A DNA stretch of 58,699 nt. It comes from an uncultured Microbacterium sp. GTDB lineage: Bacteria; Actinomycetota; Actinomycetes; Actinomycetales; Microbacteriaceae. The notes under the pieces were generated by a model that did not search any database, was not told the DNA's origin, and worked only from the letters and a program-made list of their open reading frames with translations. Positions 239-17,840 of the stretch are shown here, piece by piece. The stretch lies in contig CAJYJO010000008.1 in the NCBI GenBank assembly GCA_913774845.1, positions 1 to 58,699 of the forward strand, read 5' to 3'. Within the stretch, counting starts at the first letter, position 1, and each line of letters begins with the position of its first letter. The translations under genes were made by a program, and so were the position numbers.

Positions 239-254
239 CGCGGGCGCGTCCGGG

Positions 255-348: not shown

Positions 349-399
349 CGAGTGAGACACGCCTTAGCGCGCCGTGTCTCACTCGCGAGGGCGTTTATC
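335..399. repeat. 65-nt palindromic element, family A copy 1 (most symmetric copy)
   Basis: The unit has outer arms GAGAAACGC (335-343) and GCGTTTATC (391-399). Perfect 14-nt inner arms lie at 348-361 and 373-386 (GCGAGTGAGACACG and its complement), around an 11-nt centre. Layout is 27 + 11 + 27 nt. The same 65-nt layout recurs at 24261, 24389, 25582 and 25699, with a decayed copy at 24530. No reading frame is conserved between copies, so this is an intergenic palindromic repeat rather than a gene. Confidence 0.85.
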
Positions 400-489
400 G
401 ATGGAGGAAGGGCGAGCATGACCGGCCTCGGGATCCCCGGGGTCGGCGGCATCGCGGAGCGCGCCGCCCCGCTGACCCCGCGCCGGAAG

Positions 490-553
490 GCGTGAGTCGC
501 CAAGATGTGTCGCTTCTCGGCATGCCGAGGCGACAGATCCTGGCGACTCACGC
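490..553. repeat. Near-perfect 64-nt hairpin, family D; likely end of the minus-strand operon
   Basis: The arms at 490-513 and 530-553 are 24 nt each and complementary at 22 positions. The loop contains CTCGGCATGCCGAG, itself a perfect palindrome. The hairpin begins 11 nt past the stop of the minus-strand isomerase gene and can act as its terminator or mRNA end-stabiliser. A partial copy (GCGTGAGTCGCC followed by a GTCGCTTC-like segment) overlaps the stop codon of hrpA at 47495-47469. Two occurrences at gene ends suggest a REP-like family. Confidence 0.8.
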
Positions 554-564
554 GCGGGGCGGGC

Positions 565-1536
565 TCAGCCCAGCAGGGGGCGCAGCACCTTCTGCACGTA
601 CCAGCCGGCGACCATCGTGCTCTCGGCGGGGTGCGGGCTCTGGTCGGACTCCACGACGATCCAGCCGCGGTAGCCGTGCTCGGCCAGGGCCCGGACGAAG
701 CCCTCGAAGTCGACCAGGGCACGCTCGTCGCTCGGCTCGTAGAACCAGCGGAGGATCTTGCGCGACCCGCCCTCGGTGCGGATGAACTGCTCGGCGTGCG
801 GCGTCGACGCCTCGGCGTCGTCGACCGTCTCGCGCGCGTCCTTCAACTGCACGTGCACGACGCGGTCGGCGTACTGCCGATACAGCTCGACGGGGTCGAT
901 CCCCGCGATCGCGAGCTCGGCGGTGTCGATCGCGAGGCCGACGGTGTCGGCATCCGTCGCCGCCAGCAGACGATGGATGCCATCGCCCAGGCGCAGCGCC
1001 GAGAGGAAGTCGACGTGCAGCCCGAGGGCGATCCCGTCCGCCGCGATCGCTGCGCCGACGCTGTTCCACAGGGTCGCCAGCACCCCGATCTGCTCGCCGG
1101 AGAGCGCGCCCGTCTGCCACGCCGACGGCGCCGCTCGCACGACCAGCACGCTGCCCCCGAGGCGGCGCAGGGCGTCGGCGAACCACCGGGCGGTGCGCAC
1201 GATCTGCTCGACCGACGCCGGGTCGAGGGGGTCGGGTCCGCGGCCCATCTCGACCTCGAAGCCGACGGACGGGTCGTAGACGTAGCTGCTCACGGCGTCG
1301 ATCGCGCACGAAGACAGGAACTCCCCGAACGCCTCGACCGAGCCGTAGAGGTCGGCGAGCTGCTGCGGCGTTCCGAGCGGCTCCCAGGCCCCGAAGCTCT
1401 CGGCCGTCAACTCGACGCCGGAGAACCCACTGATGGATGCCGTCTTGAAGGCGCGTTCGTGCTCGCGTTTGCGCACGAACGAGTCGATGTTGGTGTCCCA
1501 CTGGTTGATGGCGTAGGCCCAGCGCACGTCGCTCAT
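565..1536 (-). CDS. Xylose-isomerase-like TIM-barrel protein (sugar phosphate isomerase/epimerase family)
   Basis: This 323-residue protein has the AP-endonuclease-2 / xylose-isomerase-like TIM-barrel pattern. Candidate metal-binding segments are LHVD, AIDTAE, VHVQLKD and VVESD, in the usual order. Its last ~40 residues (GYRGWIVVESD, then ...STMVAGWY) match the upstream neighbour closely, so the two are paralogues. The ATG at 1536 overlaps the upstream TGA (ATGA), indicating translational coupling; an ATG-less extension upstream was not used. In known C-glycoside deglycosidases the alpha subunit has this fold and binds a divalent metal. This protein or its paralogue could be that subunit, the other acting as a sugar epimerase or dehydratase. 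Fold is confident, substrate is inferred. Confidence 0.85.
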   Translation of the reverse strand: MSDVRWAYAINQWDTNIDSFVRKREHERAFKTASISGFSGVELTAESFGAWEPLGTPQQLADLYGSVEAFGEFLSSCAIDAVSSYVYDPSVGFEVEMGRGPDPLDPASVEQIVRTARWFADALRRLGGSVLVVRAAPSAWQTGALSGEQIGVLATLWNSVGAAIAADGIALGLHVDFLSALRLGDGIHRLLAATDADTVGLAIDTAELAIAGIDPVELYRQYADRVVHVQLKDARETVDDAEASTPHAEQFIRTEGGSRKILRWFYEPSDERALVDFEGFVRALAEHGYRGWIVVESDQSPHPAESTMVAGWYVQKVLRPLLG

Positions 1537-2492
1537 CGCGCGACCTCCTCGGTGTAGATGCCGTCCAGCACGTTCTTGGCGTACCACCGCGAGATCGCGG
1601 TGCTCTCGGCGTAGTCACCGCCGAGCTTGTCGGCTTTGTCATGCTCGACGCTGATCCAGCCGGTGTACCCGTGGTCGCGCACCGAGCGCATCATCGCCTC
1701 GAAGTCGACGAGCCCCTCGTCGGTGCCCATCTCGTAGAACCACTTCTCGGTCGTCTTCGCCGAGACCTCGGCATCCGGGAACATCCGGTAGTCGTCGTTG
1801 ACGTCTTTGTGGCGGGTGTCCTTGAAGTGGAAGCCCGTCACGCGCTCGTGGTGCTTCTCGTACACGTCGACCGGGTCGACGTCGGCGATGCAGTGCTGCG
1901 CGGTGTCGACGAAGAACTTCACGTAGCGCGGGTCGGCGTACGCGTAGAAGCGGTCGATCTGGTCGCGCGTGCGGATGCCGGCGTAGAACTCGTGGTGGCA
2001 GGTGAGGTTGACGCCGTACTGCTGCGTGAGCTCGCCGACCTTGCCCCAGATGTCGGCCGCATGCTTGAGGCCGTCGTCGGGCACGCCGGCCTCGTCGAAG
2101 TACCGCGAGCCGGGCATGACGATGATGTTGTCGAGCTGGATGCCCGACCACATGTCGAGCGTCCGCTGGAAGTCCTCGAGGATCGTGCCGTGGGTGGCCG
2201 GCACCTCGGGGGCGTAGCGATCGGGCGAGTAATAGACCCCGTGGAACGTGTTGACGATGCGCTCGAGGCCCTGCTCCTGCACGAACTCCTGGTAGTTCGC
2301 CACCGAGCCGTACTGCTCGAAGATCTGCCAGATGCGGAAGTCGAAGGTGTCGATCGCGTCGAAGCCGACGGCGGCGACCTGCTGCAGGAAGCGCTTCATC
2401 GCCAGCCTGGACTGCCATTGGTCGTAGGGTCCGGCGGGTCCTTGGGCCCGCCAATGGTCCATGTAGCTCCACTTGATAGGTCGGTCGGTCAT
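1533..2492 (-). CDS. Xylose-isomerase-like TIM-barrel protein; candidate C-glycoside deglycosidase alpha subunit
   Basis: The 319-residue protein starts at MTDRPIKWSYMDHW. It shows the xylose-isomerase-like barrel with putative metal ligands in CHHEF, FFVDTAQH, GFHFKDTRH and WISVEHD. The start at 2492 was chosen because ATG overlaps the stop of the preceding gene (ATGA) and the family motif begins immediately after it. It is the third gene after the beta-like subunit at 3496. Described C-glycoside deglycosidases (DgpBC, DfgAB and CarBC types) pair a barrel alpha subunit of roughly this size with a small beta subunit. Which of the two paralogous barrels here is the partner cannot be decided by reading. 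Alternative role: ketosugar isomerase or epimerase acting on the released 3-ketosugar. Confidence 0.85.
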   Translation of the reverse strand: MTDRPIKWSYMDHWRAQGPAGPYDQWQSRLAMKRFLQQVAAVGFDAIDTFDFRIWQIFEQYGSVANYQEFVQEQGLERIVNTFHGVYYSPDRYAPEVPATHGTILEDFQRTLDMWSGIQLDNIIVMPGSRYFDEAGVPDDGLKHAADIWGKVGELTQQYGVNLTCHHEFYAGIRTRDQIDRFYAYADPRYVKFFVDTAQHCIADVDPVDVYEKHHERVTGFHFKDTRHKDVNDDYRMFPDAEVSAKTTEKWFYEMGTDEGLVDFEAMMRSVRDHGYTGWISVEHDKADKLGGDYAESTAISRWYAKNVLDGIYTEEVAR

Positions 2493-3499
2493 TGCGTGCT
2501 CGCTCTCTGAAGAGGGGCGGATGGGTGACGGTCGGAGAGGGCGCCGGCGGCCAACGAGAGGTGACGCGAGGTCATCTCCCACGGGTCGTCGTCGAGCCAC
2601 TCCTGGCCGCCCCACTCGCTGCAGAGCGTGCCGGTGAAGCCCGTCGCGGCGAGGGCATCGCCCACGTCGCGAAGGGGGTCGGAGATCCGGTCGTCGGCAT
2701 CGTCGAGGTCCCAGAACTTCAGGTGCACGGCACCGAGAAGAGGGAGGACGGATGCCAGATCGGAAGCCCGTGCGCGTCCGAAGCGCACGAGCAGGTTCAT
2801 GGAGAGCGTGTGCACGGGCCCCGGGACACCGCCGGTGCGCAGGAGATCGATGACGGCGTCGTGGGTCTCGGGATCGCGCCAGTCGTCGCGCAGTCGACGG
2901 AGCAGATCGGGCCGGATGCCGCTGCGCTCGAGCCGCTCGAGGTAGGTCACCGGAAGCGCTGGCATGAGCATGCTGATGTCGAGCAGCAGTCGCACGTGCG
3001 GGGTGTCGAGCTTCGCGATGCGGTCGTAGTCCGCCGGGCGCGCGTCGGGCGTCTCGTGGCCCTGAGCCTCCTCGAAGAGCACGAGGTCGAGCTCTTCGAG
3101 CAGGGGGACGAGGCCGTCGAGGAGCGACCCGGCCTGACCGATCGGCAGGCGGACGCCCGTGGCGCCGACGGCGGCCGCCGCGCGCAGCTGCGGTTCGAGG
3201 AACGCTCGGCGCTCGGCATCCGTCCGCCGTCGTCCGCGGTCGTACTCATCGATGCTCACGCCGACGATGCTGACGCGCCCGCCCGCGGCGGCGAGCCGGT
3301 CGCGGAACGCCTCGACCTCGCGCATCGGCGGTGCGGGGAACCCGCGCCACATCTGACCGAGCTCGACCTCGATGGTCGACGCGATGCCCTGGTCGACGAG
3401 GGTCAGCGCGAGGTCGGGGGCCGTGCGCTCGGCACGGATGACCGCGGGGGTGAGGTTGAAGGCGCTCGCGGACAGGGTCCAGCCGTCGGGCACGCTCAC
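2489..3499 (-). CDS. Divergent TIM-barrel isomerase-like protein
   Basis: This 336-residue protein starts with GTG at 3499, overlapping the TGA of the beta-like gene (GTGA). It has barrel-like segments such as STIEVELGQMW, GVRLPIG, LVLFEEAQGHE, VRLLLDISM, VHLKFWDL and TLCSEWGGQEW. It is only distantly similar to the two barrels downstream and lacks their shared C-terminal motif. Related proteins are usually annotated as sugar phosphate isomerase/epimerase family. Its position between the beta-like subunit and the other two barrels suggests a step on the oxidised sugar. The exact reaction is unknown. Confidence 0.75.
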   Translation of the reverse strand: MSVPDGWTLSASAFNLTPAVIRAERTAPDLALTLVDQGIASTIEVELGQMWRGFPAPPMREVEAFRDRLAAAGGRVSIVGVSIDEYDRGRRRTDAERRAFLEPQLRAAAAVGATGVRLPIGQAGSLLDGLVPLLEELDLVLFEEAQGHETPDARPADYDRIAKLDTPHVRLLLDISMLMPALPVTYLERLERSGIRPDLLRRLRDDWRDPETHDAVIDLLRTGGVPGPVHTLSMNLLVRFGRARASDLASVLPLLGAVHLKFWDLDDADDRISDPLRDVGDALAATGFTGTLCSEWGGQEWLDDDPWEMTSRHLSLAAGALSDRHPSAPLQRASTQ

Positions 3500-3909
3500 G
3501 CGGCTTCTCCGACGTCGAGCGAGACGGTCGCGGCGGTGGCGCCCGTCTCGAGGGTCCGCGTGACGGCGAACGGCAGACGCAGGGGAGCGTCGGGGCCCGC
3601 GGGCAGGTACGGGATCTCGAGCCGGAACGACACCGACACCTCATGGATGCCGGGGGCCACGGCATCCGGGACCTCCAGGACCACACGGTCCTGCAGGTAC
3701 CACCAACCGTCTTCGTCGGTGAGCGCTGCGACGGGCACCCGACGCCCGCCGAGGGCGACGGTGGGCTCGAAGCGGTGGCCGTCGATCACGACCGCGACCT
3801 CGAACAGGCTCGCGAGGGGGAGCGAGCGGATCCAGGGCAGCGAGAGACGCACCTCGGTTGCGCCGTCGGCGGCGCGCAGAGCGTCGTCGCGGAGAGCGGG
3901 AAGGGTCAT
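3496..3909 (-). CDS. C-glycoside deglycosidase beta-subunit-like protein (CGDB / DUF6379 type)
   Basis: A 137-residue beta-rich protein. Recognisable features are WIRSLPLASLFEVAVVIDGH near residue 25, DGWWYLQDRVVLEV near 70 and GIHEVSVSFRLEIPYLP near 90. These match the pattern of small C-glycoside deglycosidase beta subunits, which pack against a TIM-barrel alpha subunit and help cleave the C-C bond of a 3-keto-C-glycoside. It is the first structural gene of the minus-strand operon and overlaps the next gene by 4 nt. The start at 3909 is an ATG with a weak GAGGAC about 13 nt upstream; a GTG at 3939 is possible. The family call is from memory of the motif and was not searched. Confidence 0.72.
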   Translation of the reverse strand: MTLPALRDDALRAADGATEVRLSLPWIRSLPLASLFEVAVVIDGHRFEPTVALGGRRVPVAALTDEDGWWYLQDRVVLEVPDAVAPGIHEVSVSFRLEIPYLPAGPDAPLRLPFAVTRTLETGATAATVSLDVGEAA

Positions 3910-3967
3910 GGCGGGGCACGTCCTCGTGTCGCAGCGCACCCTACGGCGCGCTTCCGCTCATAACATA

Positions 3968-3981
3968 CCGACTAATGTCGG
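3968..3981. promoter_or_regulatory. Palindromic operator CCGAC-TAAT-GTCGG upstream of the deglycosidase operon
   Basis: The 5-bp arms are perfect around a 4-nt centre. Read on the minus strand the site is CCGACATTAGTCGG followed by TATGTT, a plausible -10 placed as at the 14527 promoter. It lies between the ROK gene stop and the start of the beta-like gene. The same palindrome occurs at 7302 and 14512, so it is probably the binding site of one common regulator. Confidence 0.7.
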
Positions 3982-3983
3982 AA

Positions 3984-5264
3984 TTAGGAAGAAGGAGAGC
4001 CGCTCAACCCGTGGACTGCGGCGACCGTCGGGCGCCCCTCGCCGAACCACCGGGGCAGGCTCACCTCGAACAGCTGCTCGAGGGCGAGGTCGACGCCGCC
4101 GCGCACCGGCTCGCGCGTGTCGTTCTCGCTCGTCTTGATGAGGAGATCGCGCGTGGCCAGGGGGAGCGACAGCTCGTAGACGCGGTGGCGCACCTCGGCG
4201 AGGAACAGCTCGCCCGTGGAGGCGACGGCTCCGCCGATGACGATGAGGCTCGGATTGAACATGTTCACGAGCGCGGCGACGGCCTCGCCGACCTGCCGGG
4301 CCGACGCCTGGACGAGCGAGGTGGCGAGAGCGTCGCCCCGGCTGGCCGCGAGGGTGATCGTCTCGAGGTTCAGGGTGTCGCCCTCGGCGACGCGGTCGGC
4401 GAGGGCTCCGGTGGCGCCCCCCTCGATCGCGGCGCGCGCGTCGCGCACGAGCGCCCATCCTCCGGCGACCGCCTCGAGGCAGCCGATCTTGCCGCAGCGG
4501 CAGACGTGCTCCGCCCCCGGAACCCGCACGTGGCCCATGTCGCCGGCCGCGCCGTTCGCCCCGCGATGCAGACGTCCGTGCGAGACGAGCCCGGCGCCGA
4601 TGCCCGTGCCGACCTTGCAGTAGATGAGGTCGACGCCCTCGTCGCGCCGTCGCGCGCGCTCGCCGGCGGCGAGGAGGTTCACGTCGTTGTCGACCCAGAC
4701 GGGGGCGTCGTAGCGCGTCTCGAACGCACCGCGGACGTCGAAGCCGTTCCAACCGGGCATGATCGGCGGGGCGACGGGACGACCCGTCTCGAAGTCGACG
4801 GGGCCCGGCAGGCCCACCACGATCGCCCACACGGGGGTGCCGTCGCCCGCGGCGAGGAGGTCGTCGACCATTCCGGTCGCGGTGGCCAGGGTCTCTTCCG
4901 GGCCGCGCGAGATGTCCCAGGCGCGGTGGCCCTCGTCGAGGATCTCTCCCTCGAGGTCGGTGACGCCGACGTGGATGTGCTGGCCGCCGAGCGCGCAGAC
5001 GACGATGCGTCCGCGTTCGGCGCGGAAACGCAGGGTGCGCGGGGCGCGTCCTCCGGAGGAGGGGGCGTATTCGGCGTCTTCGAGGAACCCCATCTCGACC
5101 GCGCGGTCGACGCGCTGGGCGACGACGCCGCGGCCCAGGCCCGTCACGCGGCCGATCTCGGGGCGGGTCACGGCCTCGCCGAGGCGCACCATGTTCACGA
5201 TGCGCAGCAGACTCGTCACCTCGTCGGTCTGCGCGCCGAAGCGGAGGGTGGAGACGTTCGCCAT
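3984..5264 (-). CDS. ROK-family transcriptional regulator with N-terminal HTH
   Basis: A 426-residue protein. The N-terminal winged-HTH region (VTRPEIGRVTGLGRGVVAQRV, about residues 32-52) is followed by a ROK sugar-kinase-like domain with GLPGPVD, WVDNDVN, GTGIGAGLV and the zinc-binding signature CRCGKIGCLE. ROK regulators of the NagC/XylR/Mlc type bind DNA and sense a sugar. The start at MANVSTLRF was chosen because upstream codons lack family character. It is the only classical regulator inside the catabolic region, so it is the leading candidate for controlling the sugar genes, possibly through the 3968/7302/14512 sites. That link is inference. It is transcribed divergently from the Gfo/Idh gene at 5376. 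Confidence 0.92.
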   Translation of the reverse strand: MANVSTLRFGAQTDEVTSLLRIVNMVRLGEAVTRPEIGRVTGLGRGVVAQRVDRAVEMGFLEDAEYAPSSGGRAPRTLRFRAERGRIVVCALGGQHIHVGVTDLEGEILDEGHRAWDISRGPEETLATATGMVDDLLAAGDGTPVWAIVVGLPGPVDFETGRPVAPPIMPGWNGFDVRGAFETRYDAPVWVDNDVNLLAAGERARRRDEGVDLIYCKVGTGIGAGLVSHGRLHRGANGAAGDMGHVRVPGAEHVCRCGKIGCLEAVAGGWALVRDARAAIEGGATGALADRVAEGDTLNLETITLAASRGDALATSLVQASARQVGEAVAALVNMFNPSLIVIGGAVASTGELFLAEVRHRVYELSLPLATRDLLIKTSENDTREPVRGGVDLALEQLFEVSLPRWFGEGRPTVAAVHGLSGSPSS

Positions 5265-5332
5265 GCGTTGATCTTCACACAAGGCGAAGCCGGACCAGGC
5301 GTTTTCCCCACATCTATGGTTCATTAGTCTCA

Positions 5333-5359
5333 CACTTCAGCGGCATTCGTGCTGAAGTG
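5333..5359. promoter_or_regulatory. 9-bp perfect inverted repeat in the ROK/Gfo-Idh divergent region
   Basis: CACTTCAGC (5333-5341) and GCTGAAGTG (5351-5359) are perfect complements separated by 9 nt. The site ends 4-5 nt before the GAAGGAG ribosome-binding site of the dehydrogenase gene. It could be an operator for the divergent pair or a leader hairpin. Its sequence differs from the CCGAC-N4-GTCGG sites, so a second regulator or ROK autoregulation is possible. Confidence 0.55.
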
Positions 5360-5375
5360 GCGCGAAGGAGCGAGC

Positions 5376-6422
5376 ATGACGTGGGGTGTGGGCATCATCG
5401 GGTCCGGGCCGGGGGTCGCGGCGCTCCACGCGCCGACGCTCACGCGCACGGGCGGCGACTTCCGTCTCGTCCACGTGAGCGATGCGGGAAGCGGTCGTGC
5501 CGCGACGATCGCCGAGCGCTTCGGTGCGCGCTCCTCCGCGGGAATCGAGGCGCTCCTCGCCGATCCCGAGGTCGACGTGGTCGCGGTGTGCAGCCCGCCG
5601 GCCCTGCACGCGGCGCACGTGCGCGCGAGTCTCGCCGCCGGACGACGAGCGATCTTCTGCGAGAAGCCGCTGGCCGACACGGCCGAGGAGGCCGACCGGC
5701 TCGTGGCCGAGTGCGCGGCCGTCGGCGCGCTCCTTGTCGTCGGCACGAACCACCTCTTCGACCCTGCGTGGGTGCGCGCGACTCATCACCTCGCTGCCCT
5801 CGACGGGCGTATCTCCTCGGTCACGGTGACCCTCTGCCTCTCGCCGAACGATCGCTACCACGCGCTCACGATGGGCGAGCCCCTTCCCGCGGGGAGGCCG
5901 CCGCAGCGCCCGCCGCTCGACCTCGACGATCCGGCGCAGAGCGCGGGCATCGTGCGTCAGCTCGTCGCCGGCCTCGGGGTGCACGACCTCCCTCTCGTGC
6001 GCGATCTCGCCCCCGAGGCCCCCGAGCTGGTGTGGGCGCGAGCCGTCCCGCCCATCGGCTTCGACCTGGGCTTCCAAGCCGGTGAGGCGCTCGTGCGATT
6101 CACGGCCGTGATGCTCCCCGACGGTGCCGATTCGCTCTGGCGCGTGGGGGTCACCACCGCCGGTGCCCGCATCGAGGTGGAGTTCCCGCCGCCGTTCGTG
6201 CATGTCGGCGGTGCTCGCACGACCGTCCGCGATGCGCAGGGAGTGCACACGGTGTACCCGAGCGACCGCCGCGACGGCTATGAGGTCGAGTGGCGGGCCC
6301 TCGCCGCCCTGCTGCGCGGGGAGGCGGCGATGGAGTATGACGAGCTTCGAGCGGACGCGGCCTTCGTGCTGGCGATCGCCGACCAGGCGGCGGCGGTCGT
6401 GCGGGCGGGCGGGCAGCGATGA
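5376..6422 (+). CDS. Gfo/Idh/MocA-family NAD(P)-dependent sugar oxidoreductase
   Basis: A 348-residue protein with an N-terminal Rossmann fold (VGIIGSGPGVAALHAP, about residues 4-19), the SPPALHAAHV segment and the family signature FCEKPLADTAEEA near residue 95. The C-terminal half has the expected beta-sheet region. Family members oxidise or reduce sugars and cyclitols, often at C3, and some interconvert 3-ketosugars. The ATG at 5376 follows GAAGGAG by 6 nt. The gene overlaps the next by 4 nt. In this context it may process the 3-keto or anhydro sugar released after C-glycoside cleavage; the substrate is unproven. Confidence 0.88.
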   Translation: MTWGVGIIGSGPGVAALHAPTLTRTGGDFRLVHVSDAGSGRAATIAERFGARSSAGIEALLADPEVDVVAVCSPPALHAAHVRASLAAGRRAIFCEKPLADTAEEADRLVAECAAVGALLVVGTNHLFDPAWVRATHHLAALDGRISSVTVTLCLSPNDRYHALTMGEPLPAGRPPQRPPLDLDDPAQSAGIVRQLVAGLGVHDLPLVRDLAPEAPELVWARAVPPIGFDLGFQAGEALVRFTAVMLPDGADSLWRVGVTTAGARIEVEFPPPFVHVGGARTTVRDAQGVHTVYPSDRRDGYEVEWRALAALLRGEAAMEYDELRADAAFVLAIADQAAAVVRAGGQR

Positions 6423-7141
6423 GCGCCGTGCGCACCGATCTGGCCGCCTATCGCGCGGCCGTGGCCGAGCTCGCCCCGCGCGCGCGGCCGGGTGAGGGGA
6501 TCGACGCGATCCGCGTGGTCGAGGGGCGGGGCACCTGGTGGGAGCAGCTGGAGAGGGCGGCGGCGTTCATCGTCGACGAGCCCGACCCCGCTCCGGCTGC
6601 GGTGCACGAGCGCCTCGCCGGACTCGCCGTGCCGGTCGTCGTCGTGCGCCGACGTCTTCGCCCCGACGTCGTCGCCGACGCGATCAGCGCGTTCGCGACC
6701 CCGCGGCACGTCGTCGTGGACGCGTGGGGCGGACGGACGGATGCCGCGACGGTGCTGCGTGACGCGGTGGGCTGGGCGCGCGTGCTCACCGGCGGCCCCG
6801 TGCGTGCCTTCGCGAGAGCCGACACCGAACGCGCGACGACCCTCGCCGTGCGAAGCGAGACCGGGGTGGAGGCGAGCATCACCCGCGCGGTCGGCGGCGG
6901 CGTGGGCGCGGCGCTCACCGCGACGGCGCTCGGACCGCGGCGCGTCGAGGTGCGCGTCGACAGCGGCTCGCCGCTGCACGAGGTCTCTATCGATGACGAG
7001 GAGGGTCGCCGTACGGCCCGCGTGCGCCGCGAATCCCCGGAGCGTCTGGCCCTGCGCCGCCTCCTGGATGCCCGCGAGGGTGCCGCGCTGAGCGACCTCT
7101 CCGATCTCGCCGCCGATGACGCCGCCGCAACTCTCTCCTGA
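6419..7141 (+). CDS. Unrecognised 240-residue protein coupled to the Gfo/Idh gene
   Basis: The ATG overlaps the upstream stop (ATGA), so it is translationally coupled to the dehydrogenase. I do not recognise the family. Visible features are an RVVEGRGTWWEQLERAA segment near the N-terminus, alternating hydrophobic strands (VPVVVVRRRL, RHVVVDAWGG) and a charged C-terminal helix. There is no clear Rossmann GxGxxG motif, signal peptide or membrane segment. It could be a degenerate oxidoreductase partner that lost its cofactor domain, or a subunit. Codon use matches its neighbours. Confidence 0.8.
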   Translation: MSAVRTDLAAYRAAVAELAPRARPGEGIDAIRVVEGRGTWWEQLERAAAFIVDEPDPAPAAVHERLAGLAVPVVVVRRRLRPDVVADAISAFATPRHVVVDAWGGRTDAATVLRDAVGWARVLTGGPVRAFARADTERATTLAVRSETGVEASITRAVGGGVGAALTATALGPRRVEVRVDSGSPLHEVSIDDEEGRRTARVRRESPERLALRRLLDAREGAALSDLSDLAADDAAATLS

Positions 7142-7151
7142 CGTTGCCCGG

Positions 7152-7228
7152 CGATGCATGTCCCACTTGTGGTGGGTCGGATGCCGCCCAGGTGTCCACT
7201 TTTGGGGCATGCACCGCCAAAAAGGGGA
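7152..7228. repeat. Family B palindromic element (GTCCCAC / CCACTTTT type)
   Basis: In the 7142-7363 gap, GCATGTCCCAC begins at 7155 and a second arm pair follows: GTCCACTTTTGG (7194-7205) against CCAAAAAGGGGAC (7217-7229). The pair forms an imperfect hairpin with a roughly 11-nt loop. Closely related GTCCCACTT ... GTCCCACTTTTTGCGGGTG ... GTGGGAC sequence lies inside hrpA at 49711-49782. This is probably a small dispersed palindromic repeat; it may also terminate the 5376-7141 transcript. Confidence 0.55.
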
Positions 7229-7301
7229 CGAGGTACGAAGCGGAAGCGCGAGGAATAAGTGACGCCGATACCTGGCATCCACACAATCGGATTCCCTGAT
7301 A

Positions 7302-7315
7302 CCGACTTAGGTCGG
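7302..7315. promoter_or_regulatory. Palindromic operator CCGAC-TTAG-GTCGG upstream of the aromatic-degradation operon
   Basis: Perfect 5-bp arms around TTAG. The complement reads CCGACCTAAGTCGG, which aligns with the 3968 and 14512 sites to give the consensus CCGACMTWAGTCGG. A weak -10-like GATAGT overlaps its right edge at 7315-7320, about 45 nt before the dioxygenase start, so a bound protein would block this promoter. Confidence 0.7.
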
Positions 7316-7363
7316 ATAGTGGAAGAAGAGTCGGAACGAGCCGATTCACCGAAAGGATCGAAG

Positions 7364-8380: not shown

Positions 8381-8402
8381 GTCGAGATCCCGGTCGGGGA
8401 GA

Positions 8403-10522: not shown

Positions 10523-10554
10523 CCCCCCGTCCCCCAGAACAGAGAGGTTCTGAC

Positions 10555-11688
10555 ATGACCGCCGTTCAGAAAGTCGCGATCGCCGGAGCCGGCGTCGCGG
10601 GTCTGGCCACCGCCATCTTCCTCGCGAAGGCCGGCGTCGAGGTCGACCTGTACGACGCCCAACCCGCGCTCTCCACCCGCGGCTCGGGTATCACCCTGCA
10701 GGGCAACGCCCTGCGCGTCTTCGACGAGCTCGGCGTGTGGGACGAGGTCGCCGCCGCCGGAAAGGCGTTCGAGGGCCTGAACCTCCGCGCGCCCGGCCCG
10801 GGCGCCCCCGTGGTCGCTGCCCTGCCCGACCTGAAGACCGGCGGGCCCGACTACCCCTCGACGATGGGCATGTCGCGCCCCGATCTGGCCCGCATCCTGC
10901 TCGCCGCGGCCGAGCGCCATGGCGCGCGCGTGCACGTCGGCGCGCGCGTCACGGGCGTCTCGCAGACCGACGACGCGGTCGCCGTGGAGGTCGACGGCGA
11001 GCCCGCGGGCACGTTCGACCTCCTCGTCGGCGCCGACGGCCTGCACTCCGCGGTGCGCGAGCTGATCGGCATCCACGTTTCTCCCGAGCAGACGGGCATG
11101 GGCATCTGGCGCACCTTCGTGTCGCTGCCGCCCGACGTCGACCGCAGCGAGCTGTACTACGGCGGGCCGATGTACATCGCCGGGTACACGCCGACCGGCG
11201 ACGACACGATGTACGCGTTCCTCGTCGAGGCGGCCCAGGACCGCTCACACGCCACCCCCGAGGAGGCGCGGCGCATCATGGTCGAGCAGTCCCGCGCGTA
11301 CGACGGTCCGTGGAACCACATCCGCGCCGACATCGAGGCCGGAGCAGATGCGAACTACACGTGGTTCACGCGCCACCTCGTCGAGGCGCCGTGGAACCGC
11401 GGTCGCGCCGTCGTCATCGGCGACGCCGCGCACAGCTGCCCGCCCACGATCGCCCAGGGCGCAGCGCAAGGTCTCGAGGACGCGGCGGTCCTGAGCGAGT
11501 TGCTCGTGGAGCGGGATGCCGTGGACCAGGCGCTGTGGGACGCGTTCCACGAGCGCCGGGTCGCGCGCGCGAGAGCGATCGTCGACGCATCGGTGCAGCT
11601 CGGCCAGTGGCAGCTCGACGGCGTCCGCGACGCCGACATGGGTGGTCTGATGTTCGGTGTGGCGCAGCTGACGGCGGCCCGCGCATGA
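10555..11688 (+). CDS. FAD-dependent aromatic monooxygenase (PHBH-type)
   Basis: A 377-residue class A flavoprotein hydroxylase. It has the GxGxxG dinucleotide fold VAIAGAGVAGLATAIFL at the N-terminus, the DG motif LLVGADGLHSAVRE near residue 160 and the GD motif VVIGDAAHSCPPTIAQGA near residue 290, in the usual order. These enzymes use NAD(P)H and O2 to hydroxylate phenolic rings, often ortho to an existing hydroxyl. Here it could prepare the aglycone for the extradiol dioxygenase. The ATG at 10555 follows AGAGAGG. Its stop overlaps the amidohydrolase start (ATGA). Confidence 0.92.
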   Translation: MTAVQKVAIAGAGVAGLATAIFLAKAGVEVDLYDAQPALSTRGSGITLQGNALRVFDELGVWDEVAAAGKAFEGLNLRAPGPGAPVVAALPDLKTGGPDYPSTMGMSRPDLARILLAAAERHGARVHVGARVTGVSQTDDAVAVEVDGEPAGTFDLLVGADGLHSAVRELIGIHVSPEQTGMGIWRTFVSLPPDVDRSELYYGGPMYIAGYTPTGDDTMYAFLVEAAQDRSHATPEEARRIMVEQSRAYDGPWNHIRADIEAGADANYTWFTRHLVEAPWNRGRAVVIGDAAHSCPPTIAQGAAQGLEDAAVLSELLVERDAVDQALWDAFHERRVARARAIVDASVQLGQWQLDGVRDADMGGLMFGVAQLTAARA

Positions 11689-12710
11689 CCGCCGGGGAGC
11701 GGCAGGACGTCATCGACGTCCACGCGCACCTCCTGATGCCGGGTCTGCACGCCGAGGTCGAGCGGCGCGTGCCCGAGGAGGTGCAGGCCGCGGCCGACCT
11801 CGAGCTGCGTCGCAACGGTCTCGCGAGCCTGCAGGCCTCGGGGCGGATGATCGGCGAGCGCTTCCCGCGCCTCACCTCCGTCGAGGCGCGTCTGGCCGCG
11901 ATGGACGCGCAGGGCGTGGATCACCAGTGGGTCAGCCCCTCGCCGAATCACTTCTACCCGTGGGCGAACGAGGGGCTGGCGACCTGGGCCACCGGGGAGG
12001 CCAACCGCCTCATCGCCGATCACGTCGCCCAGGCGCCCGACCGTCTCGTGGGCCTCGGGGTCATACCCTTGCAGCATCCGCACCTGGCCGTCGACGCTCT
12101 CGACGACGCCGTTCTCGGCCGCGGTCTCGCGGGCGTCGAGATCTCGTCCTTCGCGGGGGACGTCGAGCTCAGCGACGAACGTCTCGAGCCCTTCTGGGCG
12201 CGGGCGGCGGAGCTGCGCGCCGTGGTGTTCCTGCATCCCTTCGGGTGCTCGCTCGACGAGCGGCTCGACCGTTTCTACCTCTCGAACACGGTGGGTCAGC
12301 CCACCGAGAACGCCGTCGCCCTCTCGCACCTCATCTTCGCGGGCGTGCTGGATCGGCATCCGGGACTCCGTCTGATCGCGGCGCACGGCGGGGGATACCT
12401 GCCGACCGCGATCGGTCGGTCGGATCGCGCGTGGAAGGTGCGCCCTGAAGCGCGCGGCTGCGCGCACGCGCCCTCGACGTACCTCTCGAAGCTCTGGTTC
12501 GACACGGTCGTCCACGACGAGCGGGCGCTGCGCTGGCTCGTCGAGGCGGCGGGAGCGGACCGCGTGCTGCTCGGAAGTGATTTCCCCTTCGACATGGGTC
12601 TCGACGACCCCGTCGCCTTCGTGCGGGGAGCGGGGCTCTCGGATGCCGAGTCCTCCGGCATCCTGGGCGGAAACGCCGCGGAGCTGCTGCGGACCCGGGT
12701 GCGCGCGTGA
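11685..12710 (+). CDS. Amidohydrolase-2 family protein (ACMSD / hydroxybenzoate decarboxylase-like)
   Basis: A 341-residue TIM-barrel metalloenzyme with VIDVHAHLL (HxH metal motif, about residues 10-18), VVFLHPFGC, LIAAHGGGYLPT and LLGSDFPFDMG (catalytic Asp). The layout matches PF04909 enzymes such as aminocarboxymuconate-semialdehyde decarboxylase and gamma-resorcylate decarboxylase. In a ring-cleavage operon it most likely decarboxylates an aromatic acid or a ring-fission product. It is coupled on both sides by 4-nt overlaps (ATGA upstream, GTGA downstream). Confidence 0.9.
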   Translation: MTAGERQDVIDVHAHLLMPGLHAEVERRVPEEVQAAADLELRRNGLASLQASGRMIGERFPRLTSVEARLAAMDAQGVDHQWVSPSPNHFYPWANEGLATWATGEANRLIADHVAQAPDRLVGLGVIPLQHPHLAVDALDDAVLGRGLAGVEISSFAGDVELSDERLEPFWARAAELRAVVFLHPFGCSLDERLDRFYLSNTVGQPTENAVALSHLIFAGVLDRHPGLRLIAAHGGGYLPTAIGRSDRAWKVRPEARGCAHAPSTYLSKLWFDTVVHDERALRWLVEAAGADRVLLGSDFPFDMGLDDPVAFVRGAGLSDAESSGILGGNAAELLRTRVRA

Positions 12711-13717
12711 GGATCGCGCGGTGGGCCGACGGCGCCGACGTCGGGGAGGGGTTCGTCGACGGTGACGCGGTCGTGCCGTTTCCGGACGGGCTGCGCGTCG
12801 CGGAGGTGCTCGCGCAGGGGCTCTCCGCCGCGCACGCCCTGTTCGAGCGTCGCGACCGGGCGCTCGCGAGGCCCCTCGCCGAGGTGCGTCTGCTCGCTCC
12901 GCTCGTGCCCGCGTCGATCCGCGACTTCGTGGCCTTCGAGGAGCACGTCGAGGGCGTGAGCGCCTCGGTCGACGGCAAGAGCGAGGTCGTGCCCGAGTGG
13001 TACGAGGCCCCCACGTTCTACTTCACCAACCCGCATACGGTCCGGGCGACGGGCGAGATCGTCGCGATCCCCGAGACCCAGCGGCTCGACGTCGAGCTCG
13101 AGCTCGCGGCCGTCATCGGCGCGGTGCCCGGCTCCGACGGCGAGAATCTGGATGCCGAGACCGCGGCATCCCACATCTTCGGCTACACCGTCATGAACGA
13201 CTGGTCGGCGCGCGACCTGCAGTCGCGAGAGATGAAGGTGCGCCTGGGGCCCGCGAAGGGCAAGGACTTCGCGATGACGCTGGGTCCGTGGATCGTCACG
13301 GCCGACGAGCTCGAGCCGTTCCTCGATGACGAGGGCTTCCTCGCGGTGCGCGCCGAGCTGTTCGTCAACGGCGAGCTCATCGGCGCCGACCTCGTGTCGA
13401 ACATGGGCTGGCCGTTCCCCGAGCTGGTGATGTACGCCGCGCGGAACTCCGTTGTGCTGCCGGGCGACGTGCTCGGCTCCGGCACGGTCGGCAACGGTGG
13501 ATGCCTCGGCGAGTTGTGGGGACGCCGGGGATCACTCGACCCGCGCCCGCTCGAACCGGGCGACGAGGTGCGCATGGTGATCGAAGGCGTCGGCGAGATC
13601 GTCAACGTCGTCGGGGAGCGGGTGGCCGCGCCGTCCGTCCCGCGGGCGCGCGTGCGTTCCCGGGCGCGGGACCGTGTCGAGTCGGTCGAGGCACCGGGAG
13701 CCGCTGGCGGGCGATGA
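12707..13717 (+). CDS. Fumarylacetoacetate hydrolase family protein 2
   Basis: A 336-residue FAH-family enzyme starting at a GTG that overlaps the previous stop. The segments IRDFVAFEEHVEG, FYFTNPHTV, LDVELELAAVIG (acidic metal ligands), IFGYTVMNDWSARDLQ and NSVVLPGDVLGSGTVGNGG follow the FAH fold. It is not a close duplicate of the FAH at 8403 and carries the longer N-terminal region of fumarylacetoacetase-like members. Two FAH enzymes in one operon usually divide isomerase/hydrolase or decarboxylase/hydratase steps of meta cleavage. The last ~25 residues are Arg/Ala-rich and probably disordered. Last gene of the coupled operon. Confidence 0.9.
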   Translation: MRIARWADGADVGEGFVDGDAVVPFPDGLRVAEVLAQGLSAAHALFERRDRALARPLAEVRLLAPLVPASIRDFVAFEEHVEGVSASVDGKSEVVPEWYEAPTFYFTNPHTVRATGEIVAIPETQRLDVELELAAVIGAVPGSDGENLDAETAASHIFGYTVMNDWSARDLQSREMKVRLGPAKGKDFAMTLGPWIVTADELEPFLDDEGFLAVRAELFVNGELIGADLVSNMGWPFPELVMYAARNSVVLPGDVLGSGTVGNGGCLGELWGRRGSLDPRPLEPGDEVRMVIEGVGEIVNVVGERVAAPSVPRARVRSRARDRVESVEAPGAAGGR

Positions 13718-13783
13718 CGGAACGGCCGGCGGATCCGGGTGAACGCGCGGACCTCATCGGCGTCGCTGCCCTAACGTGCTGCT

Positions 13784-14422
13784 ATGTCTCCGACTCAGTT
13801 CCTCGGTGTGGCCGCGGCGACGGTGCTTCTCATCGTCGTGCCCGGCCCGAGCGTGGTGTTCATCGTCGGCCAGGCTCTGGCGAGGGGCCGCGCGGCGGCT
13901 CTGCTCAGCGCGGCCGGTAACGCGGTCGGAGCGTCGATGGCCGGCATGCTCATCGCCCTCGGACTCGGCGTCCTGATCACCCGGTCCGCGGTGATCGTGG
14001 AGGTCATGCGCTATGCGGGCGCGGGGGTGTTGGTGGTGCTCGGAGTGGTCGCGATCGCGACGGCCGGCACGAGCGACGGGGCGAAGGCGCCGTCGCCGAT
14101 CACTCCCCACCGCTCCGGCATCCGCTCCTTCTTCGCGGCGCTGGTCGTCGGGCTGACCAACCCGAAGGTGTACATCATCTTCGCGGCCCTGCTCCCCGCT
14201 TTCGTCGACGCGTCGTCGTCCGTTCCCGTGCCGATGCAGATGGCCGCTCTGGCGATGGTTCCGGTCGTCCTCGGTCTGATCACGGATGCCACGTGGGCGA
14301 TGGGAGCGAGCTGGGCTCGGGCGTCTGTCGTGAACGCTCCCTCGCGCATGCGGCTGTTCCGGCGTATCGGAGGGGGATGCCTCGTCGCGGTCGGCGGCTA
14401 CACGGCTCTGCACCGCGGCTGA
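13784..14422 (+). CDS. LysE/RhtB-family exporter
   Basis: A 212-residue membrane protein with about six hydrophobic segments and the LysE signature near the start (TVLLIVVPGPSVVFIVGQAL, then NAVGASMAGM). GLTNPKVYIIFAALLPAFVD near residue 125 is the typical NPK motif. Members export amino acids and related small molecules. It lies 66 nt after the second FAH gene on the same strand with no obvious terminator between, so it may read through from the operon. Its link to the pathway is uncertain. Confidence 0.85.
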   Translation: MSPTQFLGVAAATVLLIVVPGPSVVFIVGQALARGRAAALLSAAGNAVGASMAGMLIALGLGVLITRSAVIVEVMRYAGAGVLVVLGVVAIATAGTSDGAKAPSPITPHRSGIRSFFAALVVGLTNPKVYIIFAALLPAFVDASSSVPVPMQMAALAMVPVVLGLITDATWAMGASWARASVVNAPSRMRLFRRIGGGCLVAVGGYTALHRG

Positions 14423-14504
14423 CCGGCGCCCGCGCGTCTCGTGCGTGAGTCCGGACAAGGCGTTCTCGAACGGGCGATCGAGCGGGTCACGCCTCCGTCT
14501 AATG

Positions 14505-14532
14505 TTGAAAACAGACATAAGTCGGATATAAT
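14505..14532 (+). promoter_or_regulatory. Strong sigma-70-type promoter with embedded operator before the MFS gene
   Basis: TTGAAA (14505-14510) and a perfect TATAAT (14527-14532) are separated by 16 nt. The spacer holds CAGACATAAGTCGG (14512-14525), a one-mismatch version of the CCGAC-N4-GTCGG palindrome seen at 3968 and 7302. An operator between -35 and -10 is the classic geometry for repression. It drives the MFS transporter and probably the oxidoreductase behind it. Confidence 0.78.
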
Positions 14533-14631
14533 GGCGGGGACGTCGGGGCCCGCGGGTCCGTTCGCCCGGTGAGGGAGCCGGAGCGGCACATACGGTCGCG
14601 TCGATCGCCCGGTCGTACGGGCGCCCCACGT

Positions 14632-16131
14632 ATGACTCTCTCTCCCGCCCGCGTCCGCGTCCTCGTGGTCTCTCTGCTCGCGGTGTCGTTCCTCGGCGCC
14701 CTCGACCACACCGTCGTCTCCACGTCGCTCGCCACGATCGCCGGCGATCTCGGCGCTCTCGAGCACATGAGCTGGATCATGGTCGGCTATACCCTCGCCG
14801 CCACCGTGATGCTGCCCGTGCTCGGCAAACTCGGCGATGTGGTGGGCCCGCGCAGCGTCTTCCTCGTCTCGCTCGGCCTGTTCCTCCTGGCCTCCCTCGC
14901 GTGCGGGTTCGCGCCGGATCTCGCCTGGCTGATCGCCGCGCGCGTCGTCCAGGGGCTCGGATCGGCGGGGCTCCAGCTCATGTCGCAGACGATCATCGCG
15001 CGCGTCACGAGCCCGCGTCAGCGCCCCCGCTACATGGCCGTCATCGGCACCGCCTTCCCCGTCGCGATCGTGGTCGGACCCGTCGTCGGCGGTCTCATCA
15101 CCGACTTCTGGGGATGGTCGTGGGTGTTCTGGATCAACATCCCGGTCGGTCTCGCCGCCTTCGCTCTCGCCGCCGTCGCGGTCCCGCGCCTCCCCGGCGG
15201 CGCTCATCCCCGCTTCGACATCCCCGGGTCGCTCGTGTTCACCGGCGCGCTCGTCGCGCTCGTGCTCGCCGTGACGTGGATCGGCGACGACGCGTTGCGT
15301 CCCGTGGCGCTGGCCTGCGCGGCGGCGGCGGTCCTCGGCATCCTGGCCCTCGTCGGCATCGAGCGGCGGGCGGCCGAGCCGATCCTGCCGCCGCGAATCC
15401 TCCGCAACCGCACCATCCTCGCGTGCCTCGGGCTCTCGCTCATCGTGGGCTCCGGTCTCTTCGCGATCGTCGCCTACGTGCCCACCTACATCCAGATGGC
15501 GTATCGCACGACCGCGACGCTCTCGGGTCTGGTGCCGATCGCGACCGTGCTCGGCATGCTCGTCAGCAACCTGCTCACCGGATGGCTGGTCAGCCGGTCG
15601 GGCCGCTACCGCTTCTACCCCGTGTTCGGCACGGTGCTGGGAGCCGCGGGGCTCGCGACGATGGCCGCGCTGCCCGCCGGGCTGCCGCTGTGGGTCCCCA
15701 TGGTCGTGATGGCCGCGGTCGGCGTGGGGACCGGCTCGTTCACGAACCTCATCTTCGCCGTCGTGCAGAGTGCGGCCGCCCGCTCCGACCTGGGCGCCGT
15801 CACCGCCACCACGAACCTCGTGCGCCAGGTGGGGTCGGCCGTGGGGACGGCGATCGTCGGCGGCGTGGTCGGCTTCGGCGTCGCCGCGAGCCTCCCCTTC
15901 GGTGTGGATGCCGACACCCTCACGCCGGCCGTGGTGCGCGCCGCGTCCGCGCAAGTGCAGGACGCCGTCGCCGTGATCTACCATGACACGTTCGCTCCGG
16001 TGTTCCTGGGGCTCGCGGTCGTCTACGCCTGCGGGATCGTGTTCGCTCTCCTCCTGCCCGGAGGACGCCTGTCCGACGACGCGCCCGAGCCCCTCGCCGC
16101 GGTGTCCGACGCCGACCGCCAGCCCGCGTGA
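14632..16131 (+). CDS. MFS transporter, DHA2 (EmrB/QacA, 14-TMS) family
   Basis: A 499-residue membrane protein with about 14 hydrophobic segments. It has DHA2-type motifs: FLGALDHTVVSTSLATIAGDL in TM1, WIMVGYTLAATVMLPVLGKLGD, RVVQGLGSAGLQL and WSWVFWINIPVG (motif C-like). The family is best known for drug export, but members in catabolic clusters can import aromatic compounds. A promoter with the shared operator lies about 100 nt upstream, so it belongs to the catabolic regulon. The ATG at 14632 lacks a clear ribosome-binding site; a GTG at 14569 in frame is an alternative start. The gene ends 48 nt before the oxidoreductase. Confidence 0.9.
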   Translation: MTLSPARVRVLVVSLLAVSFLGALDHTVVSTSLATIAGDLGALEHMSWIMVGYTLAATVMLPVLGKLGDVVGPRSVFLVSLGLFLLASLACGFAPDLAWLIAARVVQGLGSAGLQLMSQTIIARVTSPRQRPRYMAVIGTAFPVAIVVGPVVGGLITDFWGWSWVFWINIPVGLAAFALAAVAVPRLPGGAHPRFDIPGSLVFTGALVALVLAVTWIGDDALRPVALACAAAAVLGILALVGIERRAAEPILPPRILRNRTILACLGLSLIVGSGLFAIVAYVPTYIQMAYRTTATLSGLVPIATVLGMLVSNLLTGWLVSRSGRYRFYPVFGTVLGAAGLATMAALPAGLPLWVPMVVMAAVGVGTGSFTNLIFAVVQSAAARSDLGAVTATTNLVRQVGSAVGTAIVGGVVGFGVAASLPFGVDADTLTPAVVRAASAQVQDAVAVIYHDTFAPVFLGLAVVYACGIVFALLLPGGRLSDDAPEPLAAVSDADRQPA

Positions 16132-16179
16132 CCTGTCCGCCCCCGATCTCTCAGCCCGCCCGACCTCGAAGGAGAGACC

Positions 16180-17787
16180 ATGTCCGAGACCCCCACGATC
16201 GCCGTCGTCGGCAGCGGACCCATCGGCGCCGCGTACGCCCGCGTTCTGTTGGAGTCGCTCCCGCACGCGCGCGTCGTCATGTTCGAGGCCGGACCGCAGG
16301 TGACCGAGCGCCCGGGCGAGAGCGTGCGCAACATCGTCGACCCCGACGAGAAGACCCGCGCCCGCGAGCGGTCGCAGGGGCCCCAGGCGGGGGAGTACCG
16401 CGACTCGCTCGGCATCCCGTCCGGAACCATCGTCGAGGGGATGTTCACGGCTCGCCAGGGCACGCACCTGCTGGACTTCGGCGGCGAGGGGTCGGCGCAC
16501 GCCCCGACCTTCCCGGCGGCGGCCGCCGCGACGAACGTCGGGGGCCAGGGCGCGCACTGGACCTGCGCGATCCCGCGGCCGGCGTTCAGCGAGAAGCTCG
16601 ACTTCATCGGCGACGACGAGTGGGAGGATCTCGTCTCGACCGCGGAGGATCTGCTGCACAAGCAGAGCGCGGCGTTCTCGGATTCGCCCGTCGGCGCCGC
16701 GATCCGGACGCTCCTCGACCGCGAGTTCGGGGCGGAGCTGCCGGAGGGCTACGGGGTGAGCACGCTGCCGGTCGCCGGCGACCCGCAGCCCGACGGCACG
16801 ATGCGATGGGCCGGGACCGACACGGTCCTGGGCCCGCTCATCGAACCGGGCACCGACACCGCGGCGCGCTTCGAGTTGCGCGACCTGACCCTCGTCCGCC
16901 GCATCGAGCACGATGGCGCGCGCGTGCGGGGCGTCGTCGTGGAGGACCTGCGCACGCACGAGGAGGCGTTCGTCGCCGTGGATGCCGTCGTGGTCGCCGC
17001 CGACGCGTTCCGCTCTCCGCAGCTGCTCTGGGCGTCCGGCATCCGTCCGGCTCCGCTGGGCCGGTACCTCACCGAGCACCACGTCGTCATCGGCACCGTC
17101 GTGCTCGACGGCGAGCGGATGAGCGAGCTCGTCTCCGATGCCGAGCTGCAGGCCGAGCTCGACCGGCGCGCGCTGAACCCCGCCGACCCGGTCGCGGCGG
17201 TCAACCGCATCCCGTTCTCGGAACCCGACCACCCCTACTCGGCGCAGATCATGTACGCCGAGACCCCGCCGTTCCCGCTCGATCCCGCCCACCCGGCCGC
17301 GGGCAATCGCTGGGGGTACGTGAACATGGGCTACGGGGTGCGCAAATTCCCTCGGTTCGAGGACGGAGCGCGCTTCAGCGACGACGAGCTCGACTACCGC
17401 GGCCTGCCGAACTTCACGATCGACTACGCCCTCGACGCCGTGGAGGAGCGCGAGATCGCGGAGGCGACGGCGCGGCTGCGTCGCGCGGGCGACGCGCTCG
17501 GCACGTTCATCGCGGAACCGCGGCTGCTCCCGTTCGGCTCGAGCCTGCACTTCATGGGGACGATGCGGGCGGGGACCGACCCCGAGACGTCGGTCGCCGA
17601 CCCGTTCTCGCGCGTCTGGGGATTCGACAACCTCGTCGTGGGCGGCAACGCCCTGATCCCGACGGCGAACACGATGAACCCGACGCTGACGAGCGTGGCG
17701 ATCGCGGTGCGCGGCGCGCGCCGCCTCGCCGAGAGTCTGCGCGAGGTGTCGGCGGATGCCGATCGGGATGAGGCCGTGCGCGCCTGA
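16180..17787 (+). CDS. GMC oxidoreductase, candidate FAD-dependent C-glycoside 3-oxidase (CarA/pyranose-oxidase-like)
   Basis: A 535-residue flavoprotein with an N-terminal FAD fold (IAVVGSGPIGAAYARVLLE, then VVMFEAG). It also has NVGGQGAHWTCAIPRP near residue 122 and the C-terminal GMC region. The catalytic pair is probably His457 (SSLHFMGTM) and Asn500 (NTMNPTLTS), as in pyranose 2-oxidase. Length and these motifs fit the FAD-dependent C-glycoside oxidases (CarA) described from Microbacterium and Arthrobacter, which oxidise the sugar C3-OH before C-C cleavage. The ATG follows GGAGAGACC. It shares the MFS promoter. Together with the beta-like subunit at 3496 it makes C-glycoside catabolism the best reading; oxidation of O-glycosides or free sugars is the alternative. 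Confidence 0.82.
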   Translation: MSETPTIAVVGSGPIGAAYARVLLESLPHARVVMFEAGPQVTERPGESVRNIVDPDEKTRARERSQGPQAGEYRDSLGIPSGTIVEGMFTARQGTHLLDFGGEGSAHAPTFPAAAAATNVGGQGAHWTCAIPRPAFSEKLDFIGDDEWEDLVSTAEDLLHKQSAAFSDSPVGAAIRTLLDREFGAELPEGYGVSTLPVAGDPQPDGTMRWAGTDTVLGPLIEPGTDTAARFELRDLTLVRRIEHDGARVRGVVVEDLRTHEEAFVAVDAVVVAADAFRSPQLLWASGIRPAPLGRYLTEHHVVIGTVVLDGERMSELVSDAELQAELDRRALNPADPVAAVNRIPFSEPDHPYSAQIMYAETPPFPLDPAHPAAGNRWGYVNMGYGVRKFPRFEDGARFSDDELDYRGLPNFTIDYALDAVEEREIAEATARLRRAGDALGTFIAEPRLLPFGSSLHFMGTMRAGTDPETSVADPFSRVWGFDNLVVGGNALIPTANTMNPTLTSVAIAVRGARRLAESLREVSADADRDEAVRA

Positions 17788-17840
17788 GGGCAGCACCGGT
17801 GAGGCCGCGGCGGGGCCGGCGGACGCCGGGAGCCGCGTCC

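Follow-up and report, generated by a model that had tools for sequence, protein, structure and literature searches.

We analysed a 58,699-nucleotide stretch of DNA from an uncultured Microbacterium sp. (contig CAJYJO010000008.1 of assembly GCA_913774845.1), referred to as a whole as the window. It is contig C8 of a 3.37-Mb genome, and the source organism is described as a soil and plant bacterium. Positions 565-17787 hold a gene cluster that an original prediction, made from the letters of the sequence, read as a complete C-glycoside pathway uniting sugar oxidation, C-C bond cleavage, keto-sugar handling and aglycone degradation. All the genes it named are open frames where it placed them, and they belong to a block that is conserved in relatives. 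On the minus strand lie two TIM barrels resembling IolE, a third barrel resembling the alpha subunit of C-glycoside deglycosidases (CGDs), a CGD beta subunit and a ROK protein. The plus strand carries a Gfo/Idh-type oxidoreductase, a 240-aa protein, an extradiol dioxygenase (EDO), an FAH-family enzyme (FAH1), a PF04199 protein (CYC), a flavin monooxygenase (FMO), an amidohydrolase (AMH), a second FAH-family enzyme (FAH2), LysE and MFS transporters and a GMC oxidase. Genes of the glycoside-oxidase, CGD, keto-sugar and ring meta-cleavage types do therefore share one locus. C-C cleavage by the window's own alpha/beta pair is not supported, and overall the earlier interpretation is partly supported.

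A CGD-like pair with an exchanged catalytic couple

Among the three TIM barrels of the prediction, only the one at 2489-3499 (minus strand) is CGD-alpha-like. PDB searches group it with CGD alpha chains, and the top 16 Foldseek hits of its AlphaFold2 model (predicted local distance difference test, 90.8) are all CGD alpha chains or fused CGDs. The gene at 3496-3909 (minus strand; CGDB/DUF6379) had been called CGDB-like, and this is borne out. Taken alone, the window member stays under the Pfam CGDB cut-off of 27.6 bits, at 20.8-21.1; in the ortholog alignment 25 of 30 rows match CGDB at E<=0.01 (best 4.6e-8). It also matches PDB 8qvc_B at 1.1e-10, and a Foldseek search with its model gave 16 hits at E<=0.001, every one of them a CGD beta chain or the fused CGD. 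This gene is a CGD beta subunit.

In AgCGD2 the metal ligands are E147, D179, H269, K271 and E305, and His149 and Glu307 are treated as catalytic, with His149 as the catalytic histidine and Glu307 as its helper (PMC8563793, in excerpt); mutagenesis has shown that both matter. When aligned to AgCGD2, the window alpha has all five metal ligands (E144, D174, H259, K261 and E295) and carries Gln146 at the position of His149 and Gly297 at the position of Glu307.

This exchange is a property of the whole group. The fetched loci yielded 100 alpha rows, which we typed by best BLAST score, not by residue; three rows with stop codons (two window-type, one CarB-type) were removed and the window sequence was added. 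Gln/Gly is found in 62 of 62 window-type rows and His/Glu in 36 of 36 CarB-type rows; the rows partly overlap between genus and named loci, and 52 window-type and 34 CarB-type sequences are distinct. In the H259 column, Gln occurs in three CarB-type rows, all of them fused. The five metal ligands are invariant in the 52 distinct window-type sequences, and E46, E143, Y186, R239, R242 and E300 are fixed or nearly so in the window type and not in CarB-type rows. In the alpha tree one branch with a support of 100/100 divides the two types.

A phylum-wide profile search for alpha (E<=1e-40) matched 2 of 396 genomes, the source genome and G610. The same Gln/Gly alpha is encoded in a genome of another actinobacterial class, where a CarB-type gene (34%) and two beta genes lie around 8 kb away. 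Because the signature recurs in another class, the exchange looks old and kept rather than the result of decay. We also considered the His of the QGH motif, two residues past Gln146, as a substitute base; it was ruled out, as the residue varies (QGR, QGS, QGQ). In both known types of 3-keto-glucoside eliminase, CGE and AtOGE, the presumed base is a His two residues past a metal ligand (PMC10628242, in excerpt), and the window alpha does not have this eliminase-type His. Judged by its residues, the window alpha should not be classed as a working C-C deglycosidase.

Canonical genes are found close by. The window opens with the same 127 bases (1-127, no strand) that close contig C19 of this genome, an exact overlap (this pair of ends was compared). 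In the relatives L165, L166 and L167 the C19 half and the window half lie side by side, in L166 and L167 with a difference of several hundred bases around window position 130. C19 carries carA (with the clade IV loop), a beta subunit and a CarB with intact His/Glu, in the order carA-carC-carB, and the canonical CarABC genes sit just outside the window on this adjoining contig. Microbacterium trichothecenolyticum DSM 8608 has both oxidases on one contig: the clade II GMC at 145777-147348 and, at 168334-169860, a CarA whose loop, ASPVKLADD, is the one published for MtCarA (PMC11673046).

C19 also encodes a fused beta-alpha CGD-type protein (L054, 6244-7545), so that several CGD types coexist in this genome. 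The Microbacterium testaceum CGD of known structure (8qrz, 8un2, around 435 aa) seems to be fused in the same way. Next to the genome's own canonical carB, the product of L168 4524-5453 has no NCBIfam match. It resembles L176 1911-2696, which lies near the CarB-type genes of the distant class, with a common stretch RYM...HNAF...IIPLWVK spotted by eye.

The oxidase at 16180-17787 (plus strand) has the predicted His457/Asn500 pair. PDB searches place 8qve, 7dve and 7qf8 far ahead of choline oxidase. Membership in the cholesterol/choline-type GMC enzymes was ruled out (best choline oxidase 8e-6 versus pyranose oxidase 2e-104; NCBIfam cholesterol oxidase 0.00086), pyranose and C-glycoside oxidases (POx/CGOx) being far closer. 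The NCBIfam pyranose oxidase model TIGR02462 gives 169.7 bits, below its cut-off of 544.9. The enzyme had also been proposed to be CarA-like, and here the data point elsewhere. One branch (100/100) divides the GMC tree into 40 clade II rows and 12 CarA-type rows, with the window GMC apart from CarA, and its loop reads AETPPFPLDP, not the CarA clade IV LDASPVPL; the clade II consensus is SETTPFPMDP (PMC10807413, in excerpt). MPOx has the loop NPPFQL at residue 362 (PMC11673046, in excerpt), and the same motif at the same number occurs in the M. trichothecenolyticum protein orthologous to the window GMC. These features suggest that the window GMC is of clade II and MPOx-like, the loop motif providing the link to MPOx, and not CarA. 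MPOx oxidised phlorizin and aspalathin, and glucose and xylose less well (PMC11673046, in excerpt).

A ring-cleavage operon in a conserved block

The plus-strand operon starts with a type I extradiol dioxygenase of the catechol 2,3-dioxygenase kind (EDO, 7364-8380). It is followed by FAH1, an FAH-family C-C hydrolase/isomerase (8415-9362), the PF04199 'cyclase' family protein CYC (9338-10522), a group A flavin monooxygenase, a putative ring hydroxylase (FMO, 10555-11688), an amidohydrolase-2 that resembles ACMSD and may act as a decarboxylase or C-C hydrolase (AMH, 11685-12710), and the fumarylacetoacetase-like FAH2 (12707-13717). H151, H215 and E266 of the EDO are invariant in 9 aligned rows, and by analogy to XylE we take them to be a 2-His-1-Glu site. 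The operon thus combines an FMO with an extradiol dioxygenase bearing such a site, as in the fde and ifc systems, in which the A-ring is the target of an FMO and of a dioxygenase with the glyoxalase fold, alongside a hydrolase similar to DHPON hydrolase (PMC11069340, in excerpt). By its gene classes, the operon appears similar to flavonoid A-ring meta-cleavage. Naming the aglycone from the operon alone is not possible, as an ACMSD-like AMH and two FAH enzymes fit several rings.

To describe conservation within the genus, we fetched the surroundings of the alpha gene in 19 relatives, out of the 30 other genus genomes with an alpha match. The order alpha-beta-ROK-Gfo-240aa-EDO-FAH1-CYC-FMO-AMH-FAH2-MFS-GMC is complete in 15 of the 19, down to 59% alpha identity, save that the 240-aa gene was undetected in one of the 15 (L052). 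The remaining four end early, L036, L037 and L043 at a contig end and L046 at the end of the stretch.

The genus sample comprised 149 genomes evenly drawn from a larger group. With profile cut-offs of E<=1e-20 for alpha, E<=1e-120 for EDO and E<=1e-150 for the clade II GMC, alpha is found in 31 genomes, EDO in 49 and the GMC in 33. All 31 alpha genomes also have EDO (Fisher 1e-19, uncorrected for relatedness), 30 of the 31 have the GMC, and EDO accompanies the GMC in 32 of 33. The linkage of alpha and EDO exceeds chance. At the order level, EDO is found in 21 of 297 genomes.

We also scanned named genomes with the EDO profile. Among the 223 stretches found, the best 80 were kept, giving 79 loci, and for this reason the survey is biased to close kin; the nearest named relatives of the window EDO are Microbacterium. 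Full flanks (at least 20.9 kb) are available for 67 loci, in which we counted alpha at >=50% identity and the clade II GMC at >=60%. Window-type alpha is present in 41 of them and the clade II GMC in 35, 34 of these with alpha. Canonical CarA, CarB or fused CGD is found in 22 loci, and in three a GH78/GH3 gene is the only glycoside gene among those sought. The operon comes in two forms: 52 loci have AMH (form A), nine have a DHPON-hydrolase-like alpha/beta hydrolase (form B; best PDB hit DHPON hydrolase, 2jbw, 1.5e-20), none has both and six have neither. This hydrolase was undetected in window-type loci of the AMH form.

Beyond the 79-locus set, the neighbours of EDO are canonical CGD and oxidase genes in Deinococcus aetherius (L066) and fused-CGD and CarA genes in L075 and L082; in most other order-level EDO stretches no canonical or fused CGD/oxidase genes were seen. 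Some operons without CGD genes adjoin GH78 rhamnosidases, one confirmed by Pfam (L071) and BLAST relatives found beside other operons. The rhamnosidases would point to plant phenolic glycosides.

Two plasmids carry related genes. On plasmid StoSoilB13-2 of Arthrobacter sp. StoSoilB13 (L065), a window-type cluster has its beta gene on the opposite strand and a canonical CarB around 7 kb from alpha; this 1-Mb plasmid is typed non-mobilizable. On plasmid pAtK84c of Rhizobium rhizogenes K84 (L067), an EDO with 47% identity has a DHPON-hydrolase-like gene, FMO and FAH nearby, making it a candidate flavonoid-type cluster on a plasmid.

The remaining genes of the cluster suggest sugar handling, regulation and transport. 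The two other predicted barrels, at 1533-2492 and 565-1539 (minus strand), turned out to be IolE-like, with PDB 3cny matched at 1.3e-13 and 9.8e-14 and NCBIfam iolE at 79.7 and 84.1 bits, respectively, below the cut-off of 290. Each could be a keto-sugar hydratase or isomerase. IolE-like barrels lie directly downstream in only some of the 19 relatives. The ROK gene (3984-5264, minus strand) is present as predicted; since NagC/Mlc repressor models also match, below their cut-offs, its product is probably the regulator, a sugar-responsive repressor. The Gfo/Idh/MocA-type oxidoreductase (5376-6422, plus strand; iolG-type NCBIfam 84.2 bits, below cut-off) is a possible 3-keto-sugar reductase. The 240-aa protein (6419-7141, plus strand) is present in most clusters and diverges fast (31-95% identity). 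LysE (13784-14422, plus strand), which had been counted with the operon, is indeed there, outside the conserved block; it has no match in the relatives' clusters (19 genus loci; 79 named loci) and is a probable local insertion. A DHA2-type MFS transporter follows at 14632-16131 (plus strand).

At the junction of FAH1 and CYC, positions 9372-9531 form a degenerate tandem array (57 bp x2.8 and 36 bp x3.1), which leaves the true start of CYC uncertain; if translated through, it gives CYC a low-complexity, GPDAQ-rich N-terminus. An Rfam scan of window positions 1-20000 found no match. Ten frames further along, chosen by length (nine at 18-53 kb, one at 56-58 kb), were scanned with Pfam: one is a methyltransferase, one an M20 peptidase, and eight had no match; some of the frames may be spurious.

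Interpretation as a probable glycoside mineralisation island

Starting from the observed gene content, synteny, active-site substitutions, oxidase grouping and contig adjacency, we propose substrates and reactions, all of them putative. The window probably contains the right-hand half of an island for mineralising plant phenolic glycosides, which extends beyond the window. Our best reading is an island for flavonoid or dihydrochalcone glycosides, in which canonical CarABC is joined by a second oxidase whose partner is a re-tooled CGD paralog. The clade II GMC would oxidise the glucose of an A-ring-glycosylated phenolic of the phlorizin or aspalathin kind. The metal-binding pair without the His/Glu couple would then process the keto-glycoside or keto-sugar by a route other than the standard His base, while ordinary C-C cleavage would fall to the canonical CarA/CarBC encoded next door. 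The IolE-like barrels and Gfo/Idh would return the keto-sugar to central metabolism. The ring of the released aglycone would be hydroxylated by FMO, cleaved in the meta position by EDO and hydrolysed by the FAH and AMH enzymes, as in fde/ifc.

For the pair itself, we think it quite possible, though short of probable, that it is a new CGD-fold enzyme, metal-dependent and His-independent, acting on the keto-glycoside that the clade II oxidase would produce. With the canonical CarBC beside or near it, two parallel oxidise-and-cleave systems would feed one ring-cleavage pathway. Its chemistry could be, for example, aryl O-glucoside elimination or, as in ketose 3-epimerases, an isomerisation carried out by the metal-bound glutamates. 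That the pair is itself an active C-C deglycosidase following the GMC, as originally predicted, is quite unlikely. Both subunits have the CGD fold with the five metal ligands retained, and PuCGD kept 10.4% activity as H143A and 49.8% as E301A, so that not every CGD depends absolutely on the couple; yet the His-to-Gln and Glu-to-Gly exchanges run through every ortholog row examined, and Ala mutants of the couple in MiCGD, a soil enzyme, were left with 1.8% and 1.9% activity (PMC8563793 for both enzymes, in excerpt). AtOGE H134A was inactive (PMC10628242, in excerpt), and with canonical CarBC next door a second deglycosidase copy would be redundant. It is just as unlikely that the pair is a regulatory, binding or decaying pseudo-enzyme without catalysis. 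Such a protein could well have lost both catalytic residues, but against this stand the invariance of the five ligands, the fixed or nearly fixed residues specific to the window type and the Gln/Gly signature retained in another class.

Several observations weigh against the island. Within 10 kb of EDO, 17 of the 67 full-flank loci have none of the glycoside genes sought, and the EDO substrate therefore need not derive from a C-glycoside. Seven of the 41 alpha loci have no clade II GMC in the flank, four of these no canonical gene either. L120 and L143 have alpha, GMC and EDO, with the other operon genes undetected; these two loci, together with single operon genes undetected in L112, L116, L153 and L158 among others, speak against a rigid unit. 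In the distant-class genome with the Gln/Gly alpha, the 20 kb examined contain no GMC and no EDO. Long-branch warnings apply to the alpha tree and, for one long row, to the GMC tree. The likeness to FdeC/FdeE is one of gene classes and that to MPOx one of a loop motif. Lastly, the window flavin motif GAHW fits the printed clade IV motif (G/A)AHW better than the printed clade II GAWH (PMC10807413, in excerpt). The ortholog with the MPOx loop (L172) also has GAHW, and for this reason the printed clade II motif may be transposed.

Some of these points would suit a different explanation, in which the substrate of the meta-cleavage operon is a simple phenolic acid with no relation to glycosides, and the operon merely came to lie beside glycoside genes. 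EDO is commoner than alpha in the genus, AMH is ACMSD-like, and the 17 loci fit as well. We nevertheless regard this as rather unlikely, given that EDO accompanies alpha in every alpha genome of the genus sample and that it is linked to canonical separate CGD (L066), to fused CGD (L075, L082) and, in some genomes, to rhamnosidases.

If the island reading holds, it would add a candidate aglycone pathway to C-glycoside catabolism, which the literature considered follows as far as aglycone release; we found no printed link between C-glycosides and ring cleavage in the open-licence literature, nor any for DUF6379. The island also gives the clade II oxidases a genomic context. The sharply defined CGD subfamily, with its couple exchanged and its metal site kept, amounts to a natural experiment on what that site is capable of.

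Clustering of a GMC oxidase with CGD alpha/beta genes is already known from PsG3Ox/PsCGD (PMC10646112, in excerpt). The window proteins share their folds and metal site with CarA/CarBC of Microbacterium and Arthrobacter (PDB 7dve, 7dnm); unlike these, the window alpha has no equivalents of His149/Glu307 and the window GMC falls outside the CarA group. Furlanetto 2024 reportedly describes a C-glucosyl deglycosylation cluster of Deinococcus aerius (PDB 8qvc, 8umc). In its relative D. aetherius, a locus on a plasmid (L066) carries a row of genes for CGD alpha/beta, GMC, extradiol dioxygenase, cyclase and FAH, but its CGD is canonical, with E-x-H and SEYEG.

The window GMC shares the clade II loop with MPOx of Microbacterium sp. 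3H14, a clade II POx/CGOx whose gene surroundings are not described there (PMC11673046, in excerpt). The metal-dependent O-glycoside beta-eliminase AtOGE is, like the window alpha, a TIM barrel with a metal site and acts on the 3-keto glucoside of phloretin, but it needs His134, where the window alpha has Gln, and has no beta subunit (PMC10628242, in excerpt). With fde (naringenin, Herbaspirillum) and ifc (isoflavone, Variovorax) the operon shares the FMO and glyoxalase-fold dioxygenase, and form B resembles ifc in its DHPON-hydrolase-like enzyme (PMC11069340, in excerpt). Unlike fde/ifc, the window operon is joined to glycoside oxidase and CGD genes, and form A has FAH1 and an amidohydrolase instead of the alpha/beta hydrolase.

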